Position numbers and translations under genes: made by a program. A stretch of DNA of 64,000 nucleotides, taken from positions 124,001-188,000 of the forward strand of contig JNJD01000009.1 in NCBI GenBank assembly GCA_000702685.1, read 5' to 3'. Source of the DNA: Lachnospiraceae bacterium AC2028. Its GTDB lineage: Bacteria > Bacillota > Clostridia > Lachnospirales > Lachnospiraceae. The notes under the pieces were generated by a model that ran no database searches, was not told the DNA's origin, and was given only the letters and a program-made list of their open reading frames with translations. Shown piece after piece: positions 27,409 to 40,338 of this stretch (the first letter of the stretch is position 1; each line of letters starts with the position of its first letter).

Positions 27409-28545
27409 ATGAAAAAAAGACTTATTGCACTGTTGACCGTACTGGCTCTTACAAGCCTGACCGCATGCCGCGGAGATGAGAACGTATTCAATAACGGCAC
27501 CTCAACTGCGACGCCTTCTTCGGATGTTTCGGGCAATTTCGTTAGCTTAGCCGACGGAGATTCCATAACCATCTTTGACTATGATATGAGTCAGTATGTT
27601 GAGGTTGGCGATTATCATGCCATTCCCATCGATTACGAGCCCTATGACCTTACCGATGAAGACATCGATTACGCATATATGACCTTCATCCGGGATTATG
27701 CAAGTGCGGTGGATGCTTCGAATTATGAGACCGGAAGAGCCGTTCACGACGGAGATACCGTAAGCCTTGATTATTGCGGCAAAAAGGACGACGTGGCTTT
27801 TGACGGAGGAACCGCTGAAGGGTATATTCTCGAGATCGGATCCGGCACATTCATTCCCGGATTTGAAGAAGGACTTATCGGAGTGATGCCCGGCGAGGAA
27901 GTGGATCTTCATCTCACCTTCCCCGAGGAGTACCATGCGGAAGAGCTTGCCGGACAGGAAGTTGTCTTTACCTGTACCGTAAACGGTATCATCACCATAG
28001 ATTCGATCATTGCCACAGCCAATGAAAACCGCGACGAGGGAACCGATCCCATTGAGAGCGAAGATGACTTAAGAGAAATGTGCCGTCTTGAGCTTATCGA
28101 GCAGGTCAAGGCATATGACAGGGAGAACATACAGACGCTCATTTCCCAGAATCTTTCCCAGATAGTTACCGAGAAGCAGTCCTTCCCCCAGGAGCTAGTG
28201 AATGCATATGACGAGCTGGTCACAAGATCCGTAACGAGCAGTGCAACAATGTACGGGGTTGATGCTGATACGCTCCTTTCATATTACGGATATACCCTTG
28301 AGAGCTATATCGCAGAGTACAGCCGTCCCCAGCTTTTGAATGACGCCGCACTTTACGTCATAGCATCCGAGAACGGACTTCTCCAGACCGATGAGGAATT
28401 CGAGAAATCACTTCAGGAGTATGCCGACAGCTATGGCGTTTCGGTAGAAGAGCTTCTCACTCAGCTTACCAGGGAAGAGTACAGGGTATATTTCCTTGAG
28501 GAGAATACACTTAACTTCCTTACAGACCTTTATACCGTTGAATGA
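27409..28545 (+). CDS. Trigger-factor-like FKBP peptidyl-prolyl isomerase lipoprotein
   Basis: The 378-residue precursor has a lipoprotein signal peptide (lipobox LTAC, Cys about 20), so it is attached to the outer face of the membrane. A FKBP-type domain (about residues 105-205) contains VHDGDTVSLDYCGK and IPGFEEGLIGVMPGEEVDLHL. The C-terminal 160 residues are helical and resemble the trigger factor C-terminal chaperone arm. The trigger factor ribosome-binding domain is absent. A role in folding secreted proteins is inferred. It has its own promoter and precedes asnS by about 54 nt. Confidence 0.82.
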   Translation: MKKRLIALLTVLALTSLTACRGDENVFNNGTSTATPSSDVSGNFVSLADGDSITIFDYDMSQYVEVGDYHAIPIDYEPYDLTDEDIDYAYMTFIRDYASAVDASNYETGRAVHDGDTVSLDYCGKKDDVAFDGGTAEGYILEIGSGTFIPGFEEGLIGVMPGEEVDLHLTFPEEYHAEELAGQEVVFTCTVNGIITIDSIIATANENRDEGTDPIESEDDLREMCRLELIEQVKAYDRENIQTLISQNLSQIVTEKQSFPQELVNAYDELVTRSVTSSATMYGVDADTLLSYYGYTLESYIAEYSRPQLLNDAALYVIASENGLLQTDEEFEKSLQEYADSYGVSVEELLTQLTREEYRVYFLEENTLNFLTDLYTVE

Positions 28546-28599
28546 TCCTTGACCCTGCCCCAAGGTAACGGTTTAGGATGAAAATACGAGGTGATTGAT

Positions 28600-29991
28600 A
28601 TGAAACTTACAGAGATCAGAGATTTATACAAGGATGCGTCTTCTTTTGCGGGAAAAGAAGTCACCGTAGGAGGATGGCTCCGCTCAAACAGGGATTCCAA
28701 GAGCTTCGGCTTCATCACATTGAGTGACGGAACCGATTTCAGGACTCTCCAGATAGTTTACGGCGACGGACTTGCCAACTTCGATGAGATCGCTCATCTC
28801 GGAGTGGGAACCGCCATCGTTGCAAGGGGTGAGATCGTAGCCACTCCCGATGCAAAGCAGCCTTTTGAGATGCAGGCTAAGGAGGTATGTGTCGAGGGAA
28901 TCTCTCCTTCCGACTATCCTCTCCAGAAAAAGCGCCATACCCTCGAGTATCTGCGCACCATGACCCATCTCAGAGCCCGCACCAACACCTTCCAGGCAGT
29001 GTTCAGGGTAAGATCCGTCATCGCGTTTGCGATCCACAGCTTCTTCCAGGAGAAGGGCTTCGTTTATGTGCACAGCCCCATCATTACCGGAAGCGATTGC
29101 GAGGGCGCGGGTGAGATGTTCCAGGTTACCACCCTCGATCTCAACAACCTTCCCCTGACCGAGGACGGAAAAGTCGATTATTCCAAGGATTTCTTCGGAA
29201 AGGCAACAAACCTTACCGTATCCGGACAGCTCGATGTCGAGACCTATGCATTCGCATTCAAGAAGGTTTATACCTTCGGTCCCACATTCCGTGCCGAGAA
29301 TTCCAACACAACCCGCCATGCCGCGGAGTTCTGGATGATCGAGCCCGAGATCGCATTTGCCGACCTTGCCGACAATATGGAGATCGCCGAGGAGATGCTC
29401 AAATATGTCATCAAGTACACCATCGAGCACTGCCCCGAGGAAATGGCATTCTTCAACCAGTTCATCGACAAGGGTCTTCTTGAAAGACTTGAGCATGTAA
29501 TGAACTCCGATTTCGGAAGAGTCACCTATACGGAGGCCATTAAGCTCCTTGAAGAGCACAACGATAAATTCGATTACAAGGTAAGCTGGGGATGCGACCT
29601 TCAGACCGAGCACGAAAGATACCTCACCGAGGAGATCTTCAAGCGTCCCGTTTTCGTTACCGATTATCCCAAGGAGATCAAGGCTTTCTATATGAAGCAG
29701 AATCCCGACGGCAAGACCGTTGCCGCTATGGACTGCCTCGTACCCGGTATCGGCGAGATCATCGGCGGTTCCGAGAGAGAAGCCGACCTCACCAAGCTTG
29801 AGACCCGTATGGAGGAGCTCGGACTTAATAAGGAAGATTACGAATTCTATCTTGACCTCCGCCGTTATGGCTCGGCCCGTCACTCAGGATTCGGCCTCGG
29901 ATTCGAAAGATGCGTAATGTACCTCACCGGAATGGGCAATATCCGTGATGTACTTCCTTTCCCCAGAACCGTAGGTACCTGTGAACTTTAA
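28600..29991 (+). CDS. asnS: Asparagine--tRNA ligase
   Basis: AsnRS charges tRNA-Asn with asparagine. The 463-residue class IIb synthetase has an N-terminal OB-fold anticodon-binding domain ([15 protein letters not shown]). The catalytic core has motif 2 near [20 protein letters not shown] and motif 3 [15 protein letters not shown] at the end. [17 protein letters not shown] marks AsnRS rather than AspRS. ATG 28600 is preceded by ACGAGG; the GTG 9 nt upstream is less likely. No T-box leader is visible in the 54-nt gap. Confidence 0.96.
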
Positions 29992-30100
29992 TTTCACCCC
30001 CCACAGGGACACGGATGCCCCGGATCAGGTCAAAACCGGGCAATAAGTGGTATTTACATAAAGTATTAGCGGGATTTTGTTAAATATTTATAAACAAGTG

Positions 30101-30128
30101 TAAAGTTTTAACTGCCTCATTCCGATAA
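30101..30128 (+). promoter_or_regulatory. Flagellar sigma (SigD/sigma28)-like promoter of flgM operon
   Basis: TAAA (30101-30104), 16 nt, then TCCGATAA (30121-30128). Position before flgM is where a flagellar sigma promoter is expected. A perfect 6-bp hairpin GGCATA-AAA-TATGCC follows in the leader (30141-30155). Confidence 0.75.
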
Positions 30129-30185
30129 AGTAGGTGTAAGGCATAAAATATGCCCTGCAATACTACGAAAAGGAGGCAAAACCGG

Positions 30186-30464
30186 ATGCGTATAGAAAGT
30201 TATTCGCAGATCCAAAGCCTGTATCAGACTTCAAGGGTTTCGAATACACAGAAGACCAGGAACGCAGGTGCGGTAACCGACAAAGTATCTATCAGCAGCA
30301 TTGGAAAAGACATGAAGACTGCTAAGGATGCTCTTGCAGCTACTCCCGATGTCAGAAATGATCTTGTGGATTCGATCAAGTCTAAGATCCAGGACGGAAC
30401 TTACAACGTCAGCGCAGGCAGCTTTGCTGACAAACTTCTTCAGAAATATCAGGAATTGGGGTAA
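30186..30464 (+). CDS. flgM: Anti-sigma factor FlgM
   Basis: FlgM binds and inhibits the flagellar sigma factor until the hook is complete and FlgM is exported. The 92-residue protein has a disordered N-terminus (RIESYSQIQSLYQTS) and a C-terminal helical segment, DVRNDLVDSIKSKIQDGTYNV and ADKLLQKYQELG, typical of FlgM. ATG 30186 follows AAGGAGG; the longer open frame upstream is not needed. It is the first gene of the flgM-flgN-flgK order common in Firmicutes. Confidence 0.9.
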   Translation: MRIESYSQIQSLYQTSRVSNTQKTRNAGAVTDKVSISSIGKDMKTAKDALAATPDVRNDLVDSIKSKIQDGTYNVSAGSFADKLLQKYQELG

Positions 30465-30467
30465 AGC

Positions 30468-30983
30468 GTGGCGAGTCTCGTAGAGAATCTAATCAGTGTG
30501 CTTTCGCAAGAATGTGATGAAATTGAGACGGTTCTCGGACTTGCGCGCGCAAAAACCCCGGTGATCGTTGCCGGGGATCTCGATGCGCTTGGTAAGATCA
30601 CGGAGGATGAACAGTCGCATGCCGACAGGCTGCAGAACCTTGACAACGCAAGGTCCAAGGTAACTGCCGACATCGCGAATGTAATTAACAGGGATGTTAA
30701 CGAACTTAAACTGAAGACTCTCATCGGCCTGCTCGACAGGACACCGGCGGAACAGAAGGCTCTGTCAGAAGTATATGACAGGCTTACCGCAGTGACCCAT
30801 GAGCTTGCCAGAGTGAATGAGCAGAACAGCGAACTCCTTAAGAGCTCACTTGAATTGGTGGATTTTGAACTCAATCTTCTTAATTCACTGAAGGCAGCCC
30901 CCGAAACGGCTAATTATTCAAAGGGAGCTTATACCGGAGGAACCCTCGGAGTGACCAGAGGTAACTTTGACGCTAAGCAATAG
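30468..30983 (+). CDS. flgN: Flagellar export chaperone FlgN
   Basis: FlgN is the cytoplasmic chaperone for the hook-associated proteins FlgK and FlgL. The 171-residue protein is almost entirely alpha-helical with coiled-coil heptads, as expected. The C-terminal tail is glycine/threonine-rich. It starts at GTG 30468, 3 nt after the flgM stop, and ends 12 nt before flgK. Assignment rests on helical character, the FlgN-like stretch near residues 25-60 and gene order. Confidence 0.85.
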   Translation: MASLVENLISVLSQECDEIETVLGLARAKTPVIVAGDLDALGKITEDEQSHADRLQNLDNARSKVTADIANVINRDVNELKLKTLIGLLDRTPAEQKALSEVYDRLTAVTHELARVNEQNSELLKSSLELVDFELNLLNSLKAAPETANYSKGAYTGGTLGVTRGNFDAKQ

Positions 30984-30995
30984 GAGAGATCATAT

Positions 30996-32888
30996 ATGTC
31001 CCTGTGGAGTGACCTTTCCCTGGGTGTCTCGGGACTTCAGGCCAGCAACAACGCGTTAAATACCGTTGCGCACAACATAACCAATGCTGATACCGAAGGC
31101 TATACCAGACAGCAGGTAGAATTAGACGACAGAAGATATATAACGATCTCCAAGACAGGCAGTGCGATATCTTATCAGCAGTCAGGTCTTGGAGTTTATT
31201 ATTCTAATGTAAAACAGGTCAGGGATTACTTCCTTGACAAAACATACCGCACCGAACTCGGAAGACAGGAATTCTATGAGGTTTCCAAGAATACCTTAAA
31301 TGAGATAGAAGACCTTCTCGGAGAACTTAACGGTGCTTCTTTCCAGGAATCCTTATCCGATCTGTGGACCGCGGTCCAGGAGCTGACCAAGGATCCCTGC
31401 AATTCCGTTACTCAGGGTGCTCTGGTAAGCGAGGCCGCTGAGTTTCTTGAGAGAGCCCAGTCCGTATACAATGACCTGGCGGGTTACCAGGACAATATCA
31501 ACTATCAGGTACTTCAGGATGTCAAGACCATCAACGAGTATGGCAAGCAGATCCTGGAGCTCAATACCACTATCCAGAAAATAGAACTTGGACAGGAAAA
31601 GGCTAACGATTTCAGGGACCAGAGGAATCTGATCCTTGATAAGCTTGCGTCCATGTGTAATATATCTTATACCGAAGACCAGTACGGTGCAGTATCCGTC
31701 CAGATCGAGGGCGAGGACTTCGTAAAGGGTTCCCTTTGCTTCGAAATGTGGATAGATATCGATTCACAGACCGGTTTCTATACCCCTTACTGGCCCCAGA
31801 ACTCCAATTACACCGTAGCACCCGGCGGAAATCCCAAGAATACCGACGACACAATCTTTTCCTACGACGGCAAAAAGGGAGACCGTATCTATAATATCGA
31901 AGCTGCGCATGTTTTCGACCTCAGCAGGGAAATCTCCGCAGAGAACGGAACCGATGTGGGCAAGCTCAGAAGTCTTCTTTACGCAAGGGGCGATCACAGG
32001 GCGGATTATACCGACATCAGATTCTACAACGATATCAAGGACTCGGTCCTTATGAACATAGAGGCTGAGTTCGATCAGCTGATCCATAACGTCATCACCG
32101 CAGTCAACGGTGTTCTCGAGACGGCAGCAGGCGTAAAGACCGTTACCGAGAATTCCACCGGTGCCGACCTTGCGATCTACAATGCCATCAAGGCTCAGGA
32201 CCCCAAGGCATATGACGGAAAAGAATACAAGGTCTACGAAAATGTCGATGACGGCTTCAATTATATGGAAAGCGCGGACGGTTCACCCCTCCAGCTTTTC
32301 GAGAAGTCAACTACCGACGGATGGACCGAATATGACCTGAGCTCATCGGGACTCGGATCATACTGGGTATTCAATGAAGAGGAAATGCCCAAGTTTAACA
32401 GCCGCGGACAGGTTGTCGATTCTAACGGAAACGTTGTGGATCAGTCGGCTCTTGCGGACCTTAAGTACAGCCTTTATTCCACTTCCAATACCCGTATCAA
32501 CCAGAAGCTCCTTCAGACTCCTTCGCTTCTCGGCTTCAGGCTCAAGGACGGATCTGAGGATACGGCTACGATGGTGGCCCTCAAGAAAGTGTTCACCGAC
32601 GAGTCCTATACCCTTAACCCCACGGTCATCAAGAGGGTAAACCTCAACGATTACTACAGCGATCTGGTATCTCAGGTATCCAATTCCGGATATATGTACA
32701 ACAGCATCTACGAGAACCAGGCCAAGACCGTATCCGCTGCCGAAAGTGCCAGGGATCAGGTTGAAGCCGTATCGAGCGACGAGGAACTCAGCAATATGAT
32801 CAAGTACCAGAGTGCCTACAACGCTTCATCCAGATTCATCAACGTAGTAAATGAGATGATCTCGCATCTTCTCAACAGTCTGACCTGA
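30996..32888 (+). CDS. flgK: Flagellar hook-associated protein 1 (first FlgK)
   Basis: FlgK forms the first hook-filament junction ring. The 630-residue protein has the conserved N-terminal rod/hook motif GLQASNNALNTVAHNITNADTEGYTRQ-like region (residues 13-40) and the C-terminal helix ELSNMIKYQSAYNASSRFIN. The central region is variable. It is cotranscribed with flgM and flgN. A terminator follows at 32940, yet a second flgK-type gene starts just after it. Confidence 0.93.
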   Translation: MSLWSDLSLGVSGLQASNNALNTVAHNITNADTEGYTRQQVELDDRRYITISKTGSAISYQQSGLGVYYSNVKQVRDYFLDKTYRTELGRQEFYEVSKNTLNEIEDLLGELNGASFQESLSDLWTAVQELTKDPCNSVTQGALVSEAAEFLERAQSVYNDLAGYQDNINYQVLQDVKTINEYGKQILELNTTIQKIELGQEKANDFRDQRNLILDKLASMCNISYTEDQYGAVSVQIEGEDFVKGSLCFEMWIDIDSQTGFYTPYWPQNSNYTVAPGGNPKNTDDTIFSYDGKKGDRIYNIEAAHVFDLSREISAENGTDVGKLRSLLYARGDHRADYTDIRFYNDIKDSVLMNIEAEFDQLIHNVITAVNGVLETAAGVKTVTENSTGADLAIYNAIKAQDPKAYDGKEYKVYENVDDGFNYMESADGSPLQLFEKSTTDGWTEYDLSSSGLGSYWVFNEEEMPKFNSRGQVVDSNGNVVDQSALADLKYSLYSTSNTRINQKLLQTPSLLGFRLKDGSEDTATMVALKKVFTDESYTLNPTVIKRVNLNDYYSDLVSQVSNSGYMYNSIYENQAKTVSAAESARDQVEAVSSDEELSNMIKYQSAYNASSRFINVVNEMISHLLNSLT

Positions 32889-32939
32889 TAAAGGGCCCTT
32901 TGCCCGCCGGAAAAGACACACAAATGCCTAATTTATAGC

Positions 32940-32967
32940 GGGGAGACCTTAAGTCTCCCCCTTTTTT
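32940..32967 (+). terminator. Intrinsic terminator between the two flgK genes
   Basis: A perfect 8-bp stem GGGGAGAC/GTCTCCCC with loop CTTAA is followed by CTTTTTT. Confidence 0.88.
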
Positions 32968-32976
32968 AACCGATAT
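32949..32976 (+). promoter_or_regulatory. Flagellar sigma-like promoter of second flgK, overlapping terminator
   Basis: TTAA (32949-32952, in the terminator loop), 16 nt, then ACCGATAT (32969-32976). Spacing equals that of the two other SigD-like sites. A TATAAT at 32974-32979 overlaps but has no -35. Confidence 0.55.
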
Positions 32977-33006
32977 AATAATTGTGAAACCGTAGGAGGA
33001 CTTTGC

Positions 33007-34992
33007 ATGAGTTCACAATTCTTTGGATTAAATATCGCATATTCCGGATTGCTCGCAGCAAATGCGAATCTGAATACCACAGCCAATAATATAGCCAATG
33101 TGCAGACGGAAGGTTACAGCAGACAGGCGGTCGATACCCAGGCGGCCTTCCCTATCCGTACATTCCAGACTTACGGATGTGCCGGCGCGGGCGTCGACAC
33201 TCTTTCCGTTGAGCGTATAAGGGACGGTTTCTACGACCAGAAATACTGGAACAACAACTCCAAGCTCGGTGAATACAACATGAAGCAGTATTACATGAGG
33301 GAGCTTGAAGATTATTTCTATGACAGCGGAACGAACGGCGGCTTTTCCCAGATCTATGACAAGCTTATGACCACGGCACTCCAGGAGCTTATGAAGGATC
33401 CCGGATCATCCAGTGCCAAGAGCCAGTTCGTAGGATATGCCGGACAGCTTACCGATTATTTCAACCAGATCGTCGGAAACCTCCAGAATGTACAGAAGGA
33501 TGTAAACGCCGAGATCAAGATCAAGATAGACGATATCAATTCCATCTCCACCGAGATCGCAACTCTAAATGAGCAGATCACCACGATCGAGATGGGCGGC
33601 CAGAAGGCCAATGAACTCAGGGACAGAAGAGACCTCCTCGTCGACAGACTTTCGGAGATAGTGGATGTCGAGACCGAGGAACTCCCCGTGTATGATAAGA
33701 ACGATCCCGACAGAGAGACCGGTGCTTACAGATTCATAGTAAAGATCGCCGGCGGACAGTCGCTCGTAGATGCCAAGGAGCATAACGATCTTACCTGTGT
33801 GGCAAGAGAGGATTTCGAGAAGGTCAATATGACCGATATAGACGGACTTTACGATGTATATTGGGAGAACGGCGAGAAATTCAAGCTTTCCAATGCAAGA
33901 CTCGGCGGAGAACTCAGGGGACTCGTAGAGCTCAGGGACGGAAATAACGGAGAATTCTTCAACGGTACCGTTATCGATACCCAGGTTAACGGATATCACG
34001 ATACGGAAACCGGTGATCATGATACGGTAACCGTTCAGGTCACCAACGATTACCTTACCGACCTGAATAAATGTAATCTTTCCGACCAGGGCGGAATCAT
34101 AAATCTCGGTAACACCGAATTCTACTATGACTCCTGGTCGTACAGCGTAGATATCGATTCGAGCGGCAATGCAAAGTATACCTACAAGTTCGTTCTCAGC
34201 AACGAATCTCAGCTCAATCCCAGGCACGTCACCAACGACCGTGTCGGAAAGCCTGCCAAGATAGGCGAAAATATCAAGTACGAAGGAATTCCCTACTATA
34301 TGAACCAGCTCAATGAGTGGGTAAGAACCTTCGCAGAGAAGTTCAACGATATTCTCAAGAGCGGAAATCAGACCGCTACAGATCTGGATGGAACCGGAAT
34401 GATAATGTTCACCGGCGACATGCCCACGGACGATCAGCAGTACTTCTTCCCGGATCAGAATGCGAGCGGCTGGAGAGCGGATACACTCCTCAGAGCGTAC
34501 AATTCCAGGGAAGATTCGGTTAAGGCTTCCACTTACGGTGAGTCGATAACCATAGATGTTACGGATGATTCGTATTACAAGCTTACCGCAGAGAATTTCT
34601 CGATCCTGACCGCAATGGTCAACGATCCGACTCTTATGACCAATAAGTTCAAGGCGGGAGACGGAGTGGAGCAGAACGATCTTCTCGAAGCTCTCAAGGA
34701 TATGACGAGCGAGAAGGATATCCTTTCCTTCAGGGGAAGCACGGCATCCGGATTCCTCGAGGGAGTTCTCTCGGACGTAGCTCTCGGTGCGGCAGCGGCA
34801 AATACCGGAGTTGCAAGTTACGAAACGGTACAGCAGGCAATAGGAAATGTAAGACTTTCCGTTTCGGGAGTAGATGAGGACGAAGAAGCAGTCAACCTGG
34901 TCAAGTTCCAGAATGCATTCAACCTCTCCTCCAAGATGATCTCCGTATTCCAGGAAATATACAAGAGACTGATCCTCGAAACCGGAGTATAA
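33007..34992 (+). CDS. flgK: Flagellar hook-associated protein 1 (second FlgK paralogue)
   Basis: This 661-residue protein is a second FlgK. The N-terminus GLLAANANLNTTANNIANV and the C-terminal helix EAVNLVKFQNAFNLSSKMIS are conserved HAP1 features. The central 400 residues differ clearly from the first copy, so the pair is old rather than a recent duplication. It has its own candidate flagellar sigma promoter and SD GTAGGAGG. Followed after 84 nt by flgL. Possible roles are a specialised junction ring or alternative filament attachment; this is inference. Confidence 0.9.
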   Translation: MSSQFFGLNIAYSGLLAANANLNTTANNIANVQTEGYSRQAVDTQAAFPIRTFQTYGCAGAGVDTLSVERIRDGFYDQKYWNNNSKLGEYNMKQYYMRELEDYFYDSGTNGGFSQIYDKLMTTALQELMKDPGSSSAKSQFVGYAGQLTDYFNQIVGNLQNVQKDVNAEIKIKIDDINSISTEIATLNEQITTIEMGGQKANELRDRRDLLVDRLSEIVDVETEELPVYDKNDPDRETGAYRFIVKIAGGQSLVDAKEHNDLTCVAREDFEKVNMTDIDGLYDVYWENGEKFKLSNARLGGELRGLVELRDGNNGEFFNGTVIDTQVNGYHDTETGDHDTVTVQVTNDYLTDLNKCNLSDQGGIINLGNTEFYYDSWSYSVDIDSSGNAKYTYKFVLSNESQLNPRHVTNDRVGKPAKIGENIKYEGIPYYMNQLNEWVRTFAEKFNDILKSGNQTATDLDGTGMIMFTGDMPTDDQQYFFPDQNASGWRADTLLRAYNSREDSVKASTYGESITIDVTDDSYYKLTAENFSILTAMVNDPTLMTNKFKAGDGVEQNDLLEALKDMTSEKDILSFRGSTASGFLEGVLSDVALGAAAANTGVASYETVQQAIGNVRLSVSGVDEDEEAVNLVKFQNAFNLSSKMISVFQEIYKRLILETGV

Positions 34993-35000
34993 TTGAAGCA

Positions 35001-35071
35001 TAATGAAGGAAGGAACCTTCATTAACAGTTCGACAAGGATGTCTGACCAAGAGCGGGGGACCCGCAGGAGG
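35001..35071 (+). promoter_or_regulatory. flgL leader with three GGA-loop hairpins (predicted CsrA-binding region)
   Basis: Three successive hairpins precede the SD. The first is TAATGAAGG/CCTTCATTA (35001-35009, 35016-35024), loop AAGGAA. The second is GTTCGACA/TGTCTGAC with one mismatch (35028-35035, 35040-35047), loop AGGA, containing ACAAGGATGT (35033-35042), which equals the last ten bases of the CsrA consensus RUACARGGAUGU. The third is GCGGG/CCCGC (35053-35057, 35061-35065), loop GGA. The SD AGGAGG (35066-35071) follows at once. TATAAT at 34988-34993 could start a transcript at the first hairpin, but its -35 is weak. Confidence 0.6.
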
Positions 35072-35076
35072 CAGAT

Positions 35077-36675
35077 ATGCGTATTACCAATAAGATAATG
35101 CAGAGGAACAACCTCTCCAATATCAACACCAATAAGATCCTCGAAGATAAACTCACCAGCCAGCTTTCATCGGAAAAAAAGATCATAAGACCTTCCGACG
35201 ACCCTGTTATAGCTATCAGGGCTCTTAGGCTGCGCAGCAATGTTACCGAGGTTACTCAGTACTATTCCAAGAACATCCCCGATGCCACCAGCTGGCTGAA
35301 AGTTACCGAGGATGCCCTTTCTTCACTTTCTTCCATAATCACCTCATGCCAGAACGACTGTACCAAGGGCGCAAACGGCGATCTTACCAGTTCCGACAGA
35401 AATACCATCCTCGAAGAGCTCAAGGCATTTTCGAGTGAGATCTACAAGACCGGCGATGCGGACTATGCCGGAAGATATGTATTTACCGGATACAGGACCG
35501 ATACCTCTCTTTCTTTTCAGAAGCAGACCTATATGAGATATCAGATGACCGAGCAGGTAGACCGTACCGCCATCGATACCGTGACCCATGTCAACCAGGG
35601 AGAGATTGCAACCTGGACGGCTGCAAACTTTAATGATGCAACTCATTCCGGTATCACTGAGCTGCCCATCGAACAGTCCACATGCTACAGATTCAGGCTT
35701 TCATATGACGATCTGGATGATTTCGATGATTATGAGACGGGAATGCTTGAGAGTGAGCCCGTCATCCAGTATTACAATTCGAGCAACACCCTTACCACGC
35801 TGACATGCACTCAGCATATCAATTCCACCGCGGATCCCTATTCCCAGGTAGGCGATAACGATATCATCTATGTAGCCGACACCGGAGAAATGCTCCTCGG
35901 CAAGAATATCTACGACAACCTGATGGCAACCAAGGATGATCCTACTACCGGAGGCCAGGATGAATCCCAGATCCTCATCACCTATCAGAAGACCGAATTC
36001 AGGGCTGAGGATCTCCGCCCCCAGCACTTCTTCAGAAGCGCATCCATGGAAGGCGAGATCGATCCCGTATCGGGTAAATTTAATGTGGAACCCGCTTCAT
36101 ACATAAGTTATAATGAAGATTACTTAGATACGACTCTCGAAAGACAGTCCATCGAGTATGATGTAGGCTTCAACACCACCATCAGAGTCAATTCCACCGC
36201 CGACGAATGCTTCAAGCTCGGCATCGGAAGAGAGATAGATGACCTTGTAAACGCAATGCAGGCAGTTGTAGACCTCGAGACGACCATCGCCGATATCGAA
36301 AAGAAGCTCGAGACCACCACGAATGCCGCCGACAGAACCATCCTTCAGAACCAGCTCGATGCCGCCAACAAGGCATTCACCTATCAGAAGGATATCGCAC
36401 AGAAGCGTTTTGAACAGGGCATCACCGCAATGCAGGGCTATCTGAACGACACCAGCCTTGCGATCACCAATAACGGAACCAGATCTTCAAAGCTCGCTCT
36501 CATCGAGTCCAGGCTTCAGAACCAGAAGACCACGTTCGAGACCCTTCAGAGCCAGAACGAAGATATTGATATCACCGAAGTTGCGATCGGATTGGAAAGC
36601 GCAAGCGTTACTTATGAGGCGGCCCTTATGGCTACAAGCAAGATAATGCAGAATACTCTGCTTAATTATCTGTAA
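35077..36675 (+). CDS. flgL: Flagellar hook-associated protein 3
   Basis: FlgL forms the second junction ring between hook and filament. The 532-residue protein begins MRITNKIMQRNNLSNINTN and carries the flagellin-like N-terminal helix pair (SEKKIIRPSDDPVIA). The C-terminal region TEVAIGLESASVTYEAAL is conserved in FlgL and flagellins. The length is larger than the ~300 residues of many FlgL proteins because of a central insertion (about residues 150-330). It is followed by fliW after 14 nt. Confidence 0.92.
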   Translation: MRITNKIMQRNNLSNINTNKILEDKLTSQLSSEKKIIRPSDDPVIAIRALRLRSNVTEVTQYYSKNIPDATSWLKVTEDALSSLSSIITSCQNDCTKGANGDLTSSDRNTILEELKAFSSEIYKTGDADYAGRYVFTGYRTDTSLSFQKQTYMRYQMTEQVDRTAIDTVTHVNQGEIATWTAANFNDATHSGITELPIEQSTCYRFRLSYDDLDDFDDYETGMLESEPVIQYYNSSNTLTTLTCTQHINSTADPYSQVGDNDIIYVADTGEMLLGKNIYDNLMATKDDPTTGGQDESQILITYQKTEFRAEDLRPQHFFRSASMEGEIDPVSGKFNVEPASYISYNEDYLDTTLERQSIEYDVGFNTTIRVNSTADECFKLGIGREIDDLVNAMQAVVDLETTIADIEKKLETTTNAADRTILQNQLDAANKAFTYQKDIAQKRFEQGITAMQGYLNDTSLAITNNGTRSSKLALIESRLQNQKTTFETLQSQNEDIDITEVAIGLESASVTYEAALMATSKIMQNTLLNYL

Positions 36676-36689
36676 GGAAAGGAGACCAT

Positions 36690-37148
36690 ATGCTTATCAA
36701 GACTAAGATTTTCGGAGAAGTAGAGATCAGTGATGAGAAGATCCTTACATTTGAGAACGGAATCATAGGATTCCCCGAACTCAAACATTTCACCCTTATC
36801 CATGACGAGGAGAAGGGAACCGATGCAGGTATCAGATATTTCCAGTCCATAGAGGAGCCCGCATTTGCAATGCCCGTAATGAATCCCCTTATGGTATGTG
36901 AGACTTATAATCCCCAGGTCAGCGAAGAACTTCTTTCCGACCTCGGAAACCTGAGCGATGAGAACATCGTAGTGCTCGTTACCGTTACCGTTCCCACCGA
37001 TCTCACCAAGATGACCGTTAACCTTCAGGGCCCCATCATCATCAATTCCGATGAGAAGATGGGTGCCCAGATAATCGTCGAGGGAAGTGACTATCCCGTC
37101 AGATTCCCTATTTATGACATCCTCAAGGCAAGAAAGGAGGGCAACTAA
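36690..37148 (+). CDS. fliW: Flagellar assembly factor FliW
   Basis: FliW binds flagellin and, when free, binds CsrA and prevents it from repressing translation. The 152-residue protein has the typical opening KIFGEVEISDEKILTFENGIIGFPEL and the later segment NLQGPIIINSDEKMGAQIIV. SD AAGGAGA is well placed. Its stop is 2 nt before the csrA start, matching the conserved fliW-csrA pair of Gram-positive bacteria. Confidence 0.95.
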   Translation: MLIKTKIFGEVEISDEKILTFENGIIGFPELKHFTLIHDEEKGTDAGIRYFQSIEEPAFAMPVMNPLMVCETYNPQVSEELLSDLGNLSDENIVVLVTVTVPTDLTKMTVNLQGPIIINSDEKMGAQIIVEGSDYPVRFPIYDILKARKEGN

Positions 37149-37150
37149 AG

Positions 37151-37369
37151 ATGCTGGCACTTTCCCGTAAAAAAGGAGAGGCACTGGTCATCAATAACAA
37201 CATCGAAGTGACCATCCTCGAAATAAAGGGAGATCAGGTTAAGATAGGAATCTCGGCTCCCAGAGAAGTACCCGTATATCGTAAAGAGATATACCTCCAG
37301 ATCCAGGACTCCAACAAAGCCGCTACGGACGTTTCCGGAATGCAGGCCCTCAAGGATCTCCTTGGTTAG
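37151..37369 (+). CDS. csrA: Carbon storage regulator CsrA
   Basis: CsrA is a dimeric RNA-binding protein that represses translation by binding GGA-containing hairpins near Shine-Dalgarno sites. The 72-residue protein has the canonical start MLALSRKKGEALVI, the region VKIGISAPREVPVYRKEI with the RNA-contacting arginine, and a longer C-terminal tail as in FliW-regulated homologues. Located directly after fliW. A GGA-hairpin leader two genes upstream (flgL) is a candidate target. Confidence 0.95.
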   Translation: MLALSRKKGEALVINNNIEVTILEIKGDQVKIGISAPREVPVYRKEIYLQIQDSNKAATDVSGMQALKDLLG

Positions 37370-37385
37370 TTTTAAGAAACCCATT

Positions 37386-37416
37386 CGGGGCGGTCTTTCG
37401 GGCCGCCCCGTTTTCT
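37386..37416 (+). terminator. Terminator of the flagellar operon
   Basis: Stem CGGGGCGG/CCGCCCCG (37386-37393, 37403-37410) extended by two pairs, then TTTTCTT. The tail touches the -35 box of the greA promoter. Confidence 0.9.
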
Positions 37417-37444
37417 TGACAATTACCGATTTTACCGATAAAAT
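37416..37444 (+). promoter_or_regulatory. Strong vegetative promoter of greA-lysS
   Basis: Perfect -35 TTGACA (37416-37421), a 17-bp spacer and -10 TAAAAT (37439-37444). Predicted start is near 37451, exactly where the following palindrome begins. Confidence 0.8.
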
Positions 37445-37451
37445 GACTACT

Positions 37452-37563
37452 TGCACAAAAGTAAACTCAATAAGAAATTGCAGTTCTTTTATTACATAAA
37501 GGCATATATGAAACCTTTATGTAATAAAAGAACGCAATTTCTATATTTCGTTAACTTTGTGCA
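37452..37563 (+). repeat. 112-nt near-perfect palindrome in greA leader
   Basis: The inner stem has 29 pairs with one bulged A: 37473-37481 and 37483-37502 pair with 37534-37542 and 37514-37533, around an 11-nt loop. An outer stem (37452-37459 with 37556-37563, then GT/AC and AAC/GTT) is separated by a small internal loop. The sequence is AT-rich, unlike a terminator, and ends about 38 nt before greA. It could be an RNA leader or a MITE-like element; no flanking direct repeat was recognised. Confidence 0.85.
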
Positions 37564-37601
37564 TATTCTTCTTATAAGGCATAGAAAGGGGACACCTAAT
37601 A

Positions 37602-38045
37602 ATGGAAGATACTAACAAGCTTACAAAAGAAGGACTCAGACAGTACGAAGACGAACTTCATGATCTCAAGGTAAACCGCCGTCAGGAGATCGCACAGAAG
37701 ATCAAGGAAGCTCGTGAGCAGGGAGACCTTTCCGAGAACGCTGAGTATGATGCAGCCAAGGACGAGCAGGGCAAGATCGAGGATCGTATCGCCGAGCTCG
37801 AGGAACTCCTTAAGAACGCCGAGATCATCTCCGGTACCTTCGTTAAAGTCAAGAACATGGAGTCCGGCGACACCATCGAGTACAAGATCGTTGGATCTTC
37901 TCAGGCAGATTCCCTCAATTTCATGATATCGGATGAAAGCCCTGTAGGACGTGCTCTTAAGGAGAGCAAGAAAGGCGAGACCGTTAAGGTTGAGACTCCC
38001 GCAGGCGTACTTAAGTTCAAGATCTTAGACATTTGGAAGGATTAA
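37602..38045 (+). CDS. greA: Transcription elongation factor GreA
   Basis: GreA rescues backtracked RNA polymerase by stimulating transcript cleavage. The 147-residue protein has the N-terminal coiled coil with tip acidic residues ([20 protein letters not shown]) and the C-terminal FKBP-like domain ([20 protein letters not shown]). SD AAAGGGG is upstream. It is separated from lysS by 10 nt, so both are read from the promoter at 37416. Confidence 0.96.
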
Positions 38046-38055
38046 GGTAAAAACC

Positions 38056-39690
38056 GTGTCAGACGTAAATCAGCAGAATGAAAAGAATGCTCCCCAGGAG
38101 GATATCGGACAGCTCCTCAAGGTAAGAAGACAGAAGTTAGCAGACCTTCAGGCAGCCGGAAGAGATCCCTTTGTGATCACCAAGTTCGATCAGACCCATC
38201 ACACCGACGAAGTGATCCGCCTCTACGAAGAGCATGAAAAAGAGATACTCAAGGACTATACAGAGCCCGAACTTGTCGAGCCCGCAGAAGGTGCGGATAA
38301 TGAGACTATCTCAGCATACCGCCAGGCTAAGAAGGAAGCATATAACAAGCGCCGTGAGCTCCTTGATGCATCACCCATCACCGTATCCATTGCGGGAAGG
38401 ATGATGTTCAAGCGTGTCATGGGCAAGGCTTCTTTTGCAAATATTCAGGATCTTAAGGGCAGAGTGCAGATCTATGTTTCACAGGATGCACTTGGCGAAG
38501 AGTCCTATGCTGATTTCAAGAAGTCCGATATCGGTGACATCTTCGGAGTTGAAGGATATGTCTTCAGGACCATGACCGGCGAGATTTCCGTTCATGCGAC
38601 GAAGATGACTCTCCTTTCCAAGAGCCTCCAGATTCTTCCCGAGAAATTCCACGGACTTACAGATACCGATACCAGATACAGACAGAGATATGTCGACCTC
38701 ATCATGAACCCCGAGGTCAAGGAGACATTCGTAAAGAGATCAGCAATACTCAAGGAGATCAGGAACTTCCTCGATACCAGGAACTTCATGGAAGTCGAGA
38801 CTCCCACCCTCGTATCAAATGCGGGCGGCGCTGCCGCAAGACCTTTCGAGACTCACTACAACGCACTCGATGAGGACGTTAAGCTGAGAATCTCACTCGA
38901 GCTTTATCTCAAGAGGCTCATCGTAGGCGGACTTGAGAGAGTTTACGAGATCGGAAGAGTTTACAGGAACGAAGGTGTCGATACCAGACACAATCCCGAG
39001 TTCACCCTGATGGAGCTCTATCAGGCATATACCGATTACTACGGAATGATGGAACTCACCGAGTCCATGTTCAAGTATGTAGCACAGAAGGTTCTCGGAA
39101 CCACCAAGATCAATTACCAGGGAACCGAGATCGACCTTGGACAGCCTTTCGCCCGAATGACCATGAACGAGGCCATCAAGAAATATGCCGGTGTTGATTT
39201 CGATACCGTTGACGGAGATGATGCAGCCAAGGCACTTGCGAAGGAGCATCACATCGAATTCGAAGACCGTCACAAGAAGGGCGACATCATCAATCTCTTC
39301 TTCGAAGAGTATTGTGAGAAGGAGCTGATCCAGCCCACATTCATCATGGATCATCCCATTGAGATCTCGCCTCTTACCAAGAAGAAGCCCACAGATCCCA
39401 CCAAGGTTGAGCGTTTCGAGCTCTTCATCAATACCTGGGAAATGTGCAACGCATATTCCGAGCTCAACGATCCCATCGATCAGAGAGAAAGATTCGCAGC
39501 TCAGGATGCACTTGCTGAGGCAGGTGACGACGAAGCACAGCACACCGACGAGGATTTCCTCAATGCTCTCGAGATCGGTATGCCTCCCACCGGCGGAATC
39601 GGATACGGCATCGACAGACTTGTTATGCTCCTTACCGACTCGCCTTCGATCCGCGATGTGCTCCTCTTCCCGACGTTAAAAAGTCTGTAA
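38056..39690 (+). CDS. lysS: Lysine--tRNA ligase, class II
   Basis: The 544-residue class II LysRS has an OB-fold anticodon-binding domain after an N-terminal extension, and the class II core. Motif 2 region is [20 protein letters not shown], and the C-terminal motif 3 region is [20 protein letters not shown]. It is slightly longer than the usual ~500 residues because of an insertion in residues 65-105. Starts at GTG 38056; AAGG lies 9-12 nt upstream. Downstream of greA, as in many Firmicutes. Confidence 0.96.
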
Positions 39691-39762
39691 GGACGGATTA
39701 AAAGGGAAAGAGAGACAAATGGTTGACTTTTGCCATATAAGTCGGGATAGGCTATTTTTCAG

Positions 39763-39798
39763 ACTGTACCTTGAAGAATTTTCAGGGTACAGTTTTTT
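39763..39798 (+). terminator. Terminator after lysS
   Basis: A 13-bp stem with one T-G pair (39763-39775 with 39781-39793) and a T run ends the greA-lysS unit. Confidence 0.88.
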
Positions 39799-39861
39799 CT
39801 TCGATTGTCTATAACATAATGTAATGACTAAAGATTTTAGGAAAAGAGTGAGGTGGTTGCG

Positions 39862-40338
39862 ATGTTTAGGAAAATGAGAAGGTTCAAGCAACAGATTTCT
39901 GATGCGGAGTGCATTGAGGTTTTGAAGAATACTAAAAGAGGCGTTCTTTCACTGATAGGCGACGATGGGTATCCTTATGGTCTTCCTATAGACCATTGGT
40001 ATTGTGAAGAGGATGGAAAGATCTACTTTCATGGAGCGAAAGAGGGACATAAGATCGACTCTATAAAAGCCTGCGATAAAGCCAGTTACTGTGTATATGA
40101 CGAGGGCTATCGGAAGGAAGGCGATTGGGCTCTTAATATAAAAAGTGTCATTCTGTTTGGCAGGATCTGCCTTGTTGAAAATGAAGATAAGGCAAGAGAT
40201 ATATGTACTGCGCTGACCGGGAAGTTTACTGATGATGCAGAGTATCTAGAGAAAGAACTTAAGAATGCATTTCCAAGAGTTCAATGTCTGGAGTTTTCTC
40301 CTGAACATATGACGGGAAAACTGGTTAATGAGTCATGA
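39862..40338 (+). CDS. Pyridoxamine 5'-phosphate oxidase-like flavin protein (NimA-like)
   Basis: A 158-residue split-barrel flavoprotein of the PF12900 type. The opening FKQQISDAECIEVLKNTKRG and the strand GVLSLIGDDGYPYGLPIDHWY are typical, and so is the heme/flavin-site region IYFHGAKEGHKIDSI. Members include nitroimidazole reductases and unknown oxidoreductases, so substrate is not given. ATG 39862 follows GAGGTGG. Codon usage here shifts toward AT-rich third positions compared with lysS, marking the start of the accessory stretch. Confidence 0.82.
   Translation: MFRKMRRFKQQISDAECIEVLKNTKRGVLSLIGDDGYPYGLPIDHWYCEEDGKIYFHGAKEGHKIDSIKACDKASYCVYDEGYRKEGDWALNIKSVILFGRICLVENEDKARDICTALTGKFTDDAEYLEKELKNAFPRVQCLEFSPEHMTGKLVNES

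Follow-up and report, generated by a model that had tools for sequence, protein, structure and literature searches.

A double hairpin ahead of flgL as a candidate CsrA-dependent translational switch in the flgK-flgL intercistronic region

In the gene run flgM-flgN-flgK-flgK-flgL-fliW-csrA (Pfam matches to flgM, flgN, two flgK, flgL by its Flagellin_N domain, fliW and csrA), the flgL leader reaches from the stop codon of the second flgK copy (34990-34992) to the flgL start, an ATG at 35077. The question raised by this locus is whether this leader is a target of the CsrA encoded at the end of the run and, if so, in which direction flgL would be controlled. A sequence-only reading of the window, that is, of the whole 64-kb stretch of DNA analysed here, had described three GGA-loop hairpins in the leader and had pointed to a repression resembling that of hag. 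The features discussed below are collected in Table 1.

The presence of fliW and csrA downstream of flgL, also part of that reading, was corroborated by Pfam and PDB matches. The csrA product carries VYRKEI aligned with VHREEI/IHRKEI of its PDB matches, and it has the conserved arginine at position 44, which we take to be the RNA-binding residue of CsrA. Transcription of flgK2-flgL-fliW-csrA may start at 32940-32980, which would make flgL the second gene of a late transcript; the sigma-28 reading of CCGATAT was made by eye, and an exact sigma-28 consensus search did not have this site 5' of the second flgK among its matches. No conserved promoter was found within the flgL leader, and a sigma-70-like match at 34976-35004 was discarded as being at chance level (9 found versus 9.4 expected).

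Table 1. Features of the flgL leader and of its gene run (positions in the window)
Feature	Position	Strand	Description
Terminator-like hairpin, then sigma-28-like -10 (CCGATAT)	32940-32980	+	Just 5' of second flgK; -10 assigned by eye
Second flgK copy	33007-34992	+	Pfam; upstream neighbour of flgL in the run
H1	35001-35024	+	9-bp stem TAATGAAGG-AAGGAA-CCTTCATTA; hexaloop AAGGAA at 35010-35015; candidate upstream CsrA site
H2 core	35032-35043	+	GAC-AAGGAT-GTC; loop 35035-35040; candidate downstream CsrA site; weak extension 35028-35047
Anti-SD strand ATGTCTG.CC	35039-35048	+	Overlaps H2 3' arm; predicted pairing with 35070-35078 (MFE and centroid)
H3	35053-35065	+	GCGGG-GGA-CCCGC; abuts SD; apical hairpin of predicted SD-sequestering rod; GGA loop not conserved
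flgL Shine-Dalgarno (SD) AGGAGG	35066-35071	+	Context CAGGAG, not ANGGA
GGCAGAUAU	35070-35078	+	Last 2 SD bases, spacer and first 2 start-codon bases; predicted partner of anti-SD strand
flgL	35077-36675	+	532 aa; Flagellin_N domain; FlgL assigned from gene order
fliW	36690-37148	+	CsrA antagonist family; Pfam; PDB match 5dmb chain A
csrA	37151-37369	+	Pfam PF02599; PDB matches 5dmb chain D, 1t3o, 2jpp
Intrinsic-terminator-like site	37386-37410	+	3' of csrA

The hairpins of the flgL leader

H2 had first been described as a stem of 7 of 8 bp around AGGA (35028-35047) and is better read as the GAC-AAGGAT-GTC core. That the middle hairpin holds ACAAGGATGT is correct at the sequence level, and this element was compared with the end of the CsrA SELEX consensus. 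The loops of H1 and H2 are both of the form ANGGAN and lie 25 nt apart, at positions -67 and -42 relative to flgL; H2 ends 22 nt 5' of the flgL SD, and neither hairpin touches it. ANGGA is given as the CsrA motif in a passage of one study (PMC4894983). H3 does abut the SD, as had been reported.

A strict scan for hexaloops ANGGAN on stems of at least 3 bp with at least two G-C pairs, tandem hairpins being those 15-60 nt apart, returned 14 single hairpins when both strands of the window were read. H1 and H2 are among them, and these two form the sole tandem pair. When the flgL leader was shuffled 20,000 times with its dinucleotides preserved, single hairpins arose in 340 shuffles and a tandem pair in none; a 131-nt fold of this region has a z of -4.6. 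The leader had no Rfam match at E<=5 in a search of positions 28000-40000. A two-hairpin model (R1), whose training set includes the leader itself, found one strong match in its own genome, namely the flgL leader (E 2.9e-10), the next one having an E of 0.48.

Distribution and covariation among relatives

The FlgL searches covered 97 whole genomes, 77 of which gave a match, and yielded 80 named loci, almost all of them carrying the name Lachnospiraceae or that of kin. Counting the own genome, the flgL leader was readable in 28 genomes of the genus. The H1-H2 pair precedes flgL in 19 of these, comprising 14 own-clade genomes and five at 57-64% FlgL identity, and is absent from the other nine; G001, G015 and G023, also of the genus, gave no full FlgL match and fall outside the 28. 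Every one of the 14 own-clade genomes has both hairpins, the H2 loop reading ANGGAT throughout. In the flgK-flgL gap of L069 and L070 (the same places as L022 and L023), which lack the pair, a terminator-like hairpin was seen by eye.

One partial locus (L120) was dropped from the 80, and the strict scan of the remaining 79 (1.13 Mb, both strands counted) yielded 37 tandem pairs, distributed over 17 flgL leaders, 17 flaG starts, one flagellin leader (L106) and two places inside csrA; the flaG assignments were made by sequence pattern in 16 cases and by eye in L087, and two were checked by Pfam. Mapped onto an 82-row FlgL tree, the pair requires four changes, which implies repeated gain or loss outside the own clade.

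Covariation was assessed in an alignment of 17 rows with no gaps inside the hairpins, H1 and H2 being aligned apart from the whole leaders; 13 rows were chosen by FlgL homology only and four came from the scan for ANGGAN hairpins. Across the 17 rows, 87.7% of the cells pair, both sides changed in 9 of 12 pairs, and the two-hairpin covariation score was 0.469 versus 0.156±0.030 in shuffled and at most 0.117 in slid alignments, almost all of it coming from H1. The 13 homology-chosen rows scored 0.330 versus 0.130±0.030 when shuffled, all from H1, while H2 is invariant in them; the number of pair types in these rows does not exceed that of shuffles (191 of 500). In H2, the stem GAC/GTC becomes GCC/GGC in four distant rows, a single pair passing from AU to CG. 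H1 is therefore strongly conserved with compensatory changes, and H2 by one pair only; both loops keep ANGGA in 17 of 17 rows while the H1 stem varies. These data answer the check by covariation in relatives that accompanied the sequence-only reading in its favour, with H1 and H2 kept in 14 of 14 own-clade genomes and compensatory changes in H1. Its claim of three GGA-loop hairpins stands as a description of the sequence and for the conserved H1 and H2, and fails for H3 as a CsrA site: the stem of H3 is kept in close genomes, and GGA occupies its loop in only 5 of 14, most others having GGA only across the paired stem GG. On the basis of the folds presented below, H3 is probably better read as the tip of an SD-sequestering rod.

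Run on 31 same-genus genomes, R1 gave 17 strong matches, each 5' of flgL; none is independent, given that 16 are rows of the model alignment A2 and the 17th (G018) has hairpins identical to row L057. The genus matches listed do not include the flgL leaders of G017 and G025, whose spacers are longer. Weaker matches in the genus, of which part were read, included fliD leaders (L221, L222), a DUF6033 leader (L216), an intergenic pair before an unnamed gene (L220), Y-shaped repeats (L215, L217, L218), a site before a permease-like gene (L223) and several sites in reading frames, such as L214, L219, L224 and L225. With stricter filters, seven of 396 family genomes, own included, had matches with E<=0.01. 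Among the eight matches outside the own genome, L227 lies within a long reading frame, L229, L230 and L234 are palindromic intergenic repeats, and the motif scan showed no ANGGAN pair in L228 and L231-L233.

The Y-shaped intergenic palindromes (L215, L217, L218, L229, L230 and L234) have two hairpin arms, most with CsrA-like loops, ATGGAT or alike. Several are flanked by long inverted repeats and resemble mobile elements; they could act as CsrA sinks. A reading of these repeats as CsrB-like sRNAs was dropped, since the long flanking inverted repeats suggest mobile palindromes.

Related hairpins in other leaders

The own genome has five other Flagellin_N genes, and the leaders of three of them (L001, L002, L003) were analysed. 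L001 and L002 are identical in the leader, with GCCGC-AGGGAA-GCGGC at -37 and ATTTC-AAGGAG-GAAAT at -14, the latter holding the SD; no such hairpins were found in the L003 leader. The own flagellin mRNA thus appears, from its sequence, to have the classic repressing layout of one hairpin followed by an SD-holding hairpin. Among 16 same-genus genomes (L143-L158), compared where a flagellin of about 70% identity or more lay in the loci read, 14 have one or more flagellin leaders in which an ANGGAN hairpin lies upstream of an SD-holding hairpin, the exceptions being G007, with neither, and G003, with the upstream hairpin only. The spacing of the ANGGAN loops is 21-25 nt in these flagellin leaders (23 in the own one) versus 25 in the flgL leader. 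The two kinds of leader differ in that the second flagellin hairpin holds the SD (AAGGAG), whereas in the flgL leader the module is shifted upstream by some 28 nt and is clear of the SD. The flgL SD is without ANGGA in all 12 leaders checked, reading CAGGAG, or CGGGAG in G019.

Similar elements were seen before other genes. The own fliD leader (L226; G000:C7:278652-278731) has AGGGG-AAGGAT-CCCTT at -71 and TTTC-ATGGAA-GAAA at -22, with similar leader sequences in two relatives, so that fliD is a further candidate CsrA target; its identity was taken from a relative of the own gene that matches Pfam FliD. In 17 loci (L083, L100, L130 and others), some 2.4-2.9 kb past the flgL start, a short ANGGAN hairpin, frequently CAC-AYGGAG-GTG, encloses the flaG SD region, and the early flaG codons hold a second hairpin of this type. 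A DUF6033 gene (L216:2490-2540) has an ANGGAN hairpin and an SD-holding hairpin, CTAC-AAGGAG-GTAG, in the flagellin-type layout, and a flagellin whose terminal helices flank a von Willebrand A domain (L106:6220-7533, Pfam) is preceded by a tandem ANGGAN pair, like flgL.

Predicted folds, direction of control and known systems

The claim that the flgL leader is a CsrA target in a FliW-CsrA organism gains support from the conserved ANGGAN hairpins, the covariation of H1, the location of fliW and csrA in the same run and the CsrA-type hairpins of the flagellin leader, and CsrA binding to H1 and H2 is, judging from these sequences, very likely. The direction of control is suggested by the folds. 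In the predicted minimum free energy fold of the free leader H2 is missing, its 3' arm and flank pairing with the SD end, spacer and start codon (35039-35048 with 35070-35078). The predicted probability of H2 in free RNA is 0.00 in 13 of 13 own-clade leaders folded, and the anti-SD pairing appears in 12 of these 13, in an extended form in three leaders with an insert; in G019 both strands have changed and other pairs are predicted to hide the SD fully (SD unpaired 0.00 free and 0.74 with H1 and H2 locked). Within the own clade the anti-SD helix hardly varies, with no covariation support beyond this replacement in G019.

Forcing H1 and H2 lowers the predicted cost of opening positions -14 to +3 in 14 of 14 own-clade leaders, by 2.4-8.1 kcal/mol. 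For the own leader the predicted cost falls from 15.0 to 10.9 kcal/mol, a gain of 4.1 reached by 5 of 400 controls with shuffled linker and random spacer, and among 47 heuristic gene starts in the window only one is more closed than this flgL site (15.0 versus a mean of 6.5 kcal/mol). The fliW site, with a predicted cost of 2.8 kcal/mol, is the sixth lowest of the 47. With an open ribosome site at fliW itself, a change in flgL expression would not have to reach fliW-csrA, and the feedback on the CsrA-FliW operon suggested by the sequence-only reading stays conjectural. The predicted gain in accessibility lies mostly in the spacer and start codon, not in the SD hexamer, whose predicted unpaired fraction moves from 0.67 to 0.69 in the own leader and from 0.66-0.67 to 0.67-0.78 in 9 of 13 leaders. 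Locking H1 and H2 is predicted to cost 5.0-11.0 kcal/mol in the own clade, which CsrA must pay. Six distant relatives with the pair showed no clear gain on locking (-1.8 to +1.8 kcal/mol, predicted), which ruled out the switch as a property of every pair-bearing leader; the double site would thus be the wider feature and the switch, as modelled, a feature of the 14 own-clade genomes. In the flgL leaders of L071, L078 and L080, the sequence of the H1 5' arm (GCATTGCGGG) is similar to that of the SD segment (AATGCGGGG), and the 3' arm of H1 could act as an anti-SD, with a small predicted folding gain of 0.2-1.8 kcal/mol.

Based on these models, we propose that the region between flgK and flgL works as a translational switch through a double CsrA site and that CsrA activates flgL, a reading to which we give an even chance. 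The free RNA would form H1 and a rod, capped by H3, that pairs the H2 3' arm with the SD end, the spacer and the start codon, and flgL would be poorly translated from this form. One CsrA dimer would bind H1 and H2 together, their loops being 25 nt apart, and lock H2; this would remove the anti-SD strand and expose the ribosome site, so that free CsrA would activate flgL. The direction of the effect is suggested by the folding models, in which H2 is unformed in free own-clade RNA and locking eases opening of the site in 14 of 14 leaders, which favours activation over a hag-like repression.

A repressing CsrA at H1-H2, either trapping a ribosome-blocking form or recruiting a further CsrA dimer to the SD GGA, is in our view rather unlikely. 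Repression is the common outcome of CsrA binding according to part of one paper (PMC7492729), C. jejuni CsrA represses downstream genes of polycistrons in a passage of another (PMC4894983), and within the genus the flagellin leaders combine a hairpin with an SD-hairpin and the second fliD hairpin, at -22, is near the SD. Against it stand the 22 nt between H2 and the SD, an SD that reads CAGGAG (CGGGAG in G019) and not ANGGA, the H3 loop GGA kept in only 5 of 14 genomes and the predicted opening of the site on locking. The hag-like repression first suggested for flgL therefore does not agree with hairpins that lie off the SD, with an SD devoid of ANGGA and with a site predicted to open when H1 and H2 are locked.

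The pair might instead serve mainly as a CsrA sink or an mRNA-stability element, titrating CsrA on the fliW-csrA transcript or shielding the flgL-fliW-csrA segment against degradation, and leave flgL initiation free of direct control. Distant relatives for which no ribosome-site switch is predicted retain the pair, the site lies ahead of csrA itself, and flaA mRNA titrates CsrA in C. jejuni (PMC4894983, in the passage cited). We regard such a role as unlikely, as it accounts neither for the unusually closed flgL ribosome site of the own leader nor for the way this site is coupled to H2 in each of the 14 own-clade genomes. Sequestration of the ribosome site could also regulate flgL by itself, and the leader would then be a structured intercistronic RNA unrelated to CsrA, such as a ribosome-site thermometer or a processing site, with coincidental GGA loops; this is very improbable in view of the ANGGA kept in both loops of 17 of 17 rows over a varying H1 stem (four of these rows having been found by the ANGGAN scan itself) and of the confinement of the 37 pairs in 79 loci to flgL, flaG, flagellin and csrA.

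Under the activation reading, the same CsrA would repress flagellin by covering its SD, and FliW, released on flagellin export, would reverse both effects. We tentatively suggest, with less than even confidence, that one CsrA-FliW circuit has two signs, flgL on and flagellin off, depending on whether the module lies off or on the SD, so that the hook-filament junction would precede the filament and the release of FliW would flip both. The control of flgL by FliW would be a consequence of this scheme. If true, the order of junction and then filament would be set post-transcriptionally by the position of an RNA module relative to the SD, and flgL would be the counterpart of ymdA-type activation in a system with a protein antagonist of CsrA. 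The papers cited here present CsrA-FliW control chiefly as a loop of flagellin homeostasis, with the flagellin-FliW-CsrA partner switch treated in part of one of them (PMC6529632). The literature searched, in which subscription papers were mostly outside the scope, held no study whose title or abstract treats the flgL leader as a CsrA-FliW switch.

In C. jejuni, a passage on CsrA co-immunoprecipitation shows flgL hardly enriched, at 0.9-2.3x versus 45-325x for flaA (PMC4894983), which counts against the activation reading. In an H. pylori csrA mutant flgL was lower, as stated in part of a paper on CsrA/RpoN control (PMC5368276). In P. fuliginea, flgL is among the CsrA-associated transcripts in sRNA mutants, a point of resemblance to the locus described here; the Csr system of that organism is of the sRNA type, and the passage in question does not deal with the structure of the flgL leader (PMC11882849).

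Among the known leaders, those of hag (B. subtilis), fliC (C. difficile) and flaA (C. jejuni) share with flgL two leader CsrA sites and a system with fliW and csrA. At flgL, ANGGA is found in short hairpin loops at no fewer than two sites, and fliW and csrA lie next to the target, as in the hag type. The predicted C. difficile fliC BS1, TGACAAGGATGT, is nearly the H2 sequence, CGACAAGGATGT (PMC8523840, in the part cited). The second site of hag, fliC and flaA overlaps the SD and CsrA represses, whereas both flgL sites are upstream of the SD, and no CsrA site covers the flgL SD (CAGGAG, without ANGGA in 12 of 12; H3 GGA in 5 of 14). A precedent for the proposed mechanism is the E. coli ymdA leader, where CsrA activates translation (PMC7492729). 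The ymdA and flgL leaders are alike in having two CsrA sites, one just upstream of and one inside an SD-sequestering structure, in an SD GGA that is no CsrA site, and in the opening of the SD by CsrA, which was shown by experiment for ymdA and is predicted for flgL; as in the ymdA type, the structure predicted to hide the SD and start overlaps a CsrA site in the own clade, where locking brings a predicted gain in 14 of 14 genomes. Unlike ymdA, flgL belongs to a FliW-type system, its leader is intercistronic and precedes a flagellar junction gene, and its H2, lost in the closed fold, is a hairpin of the CsrA type.
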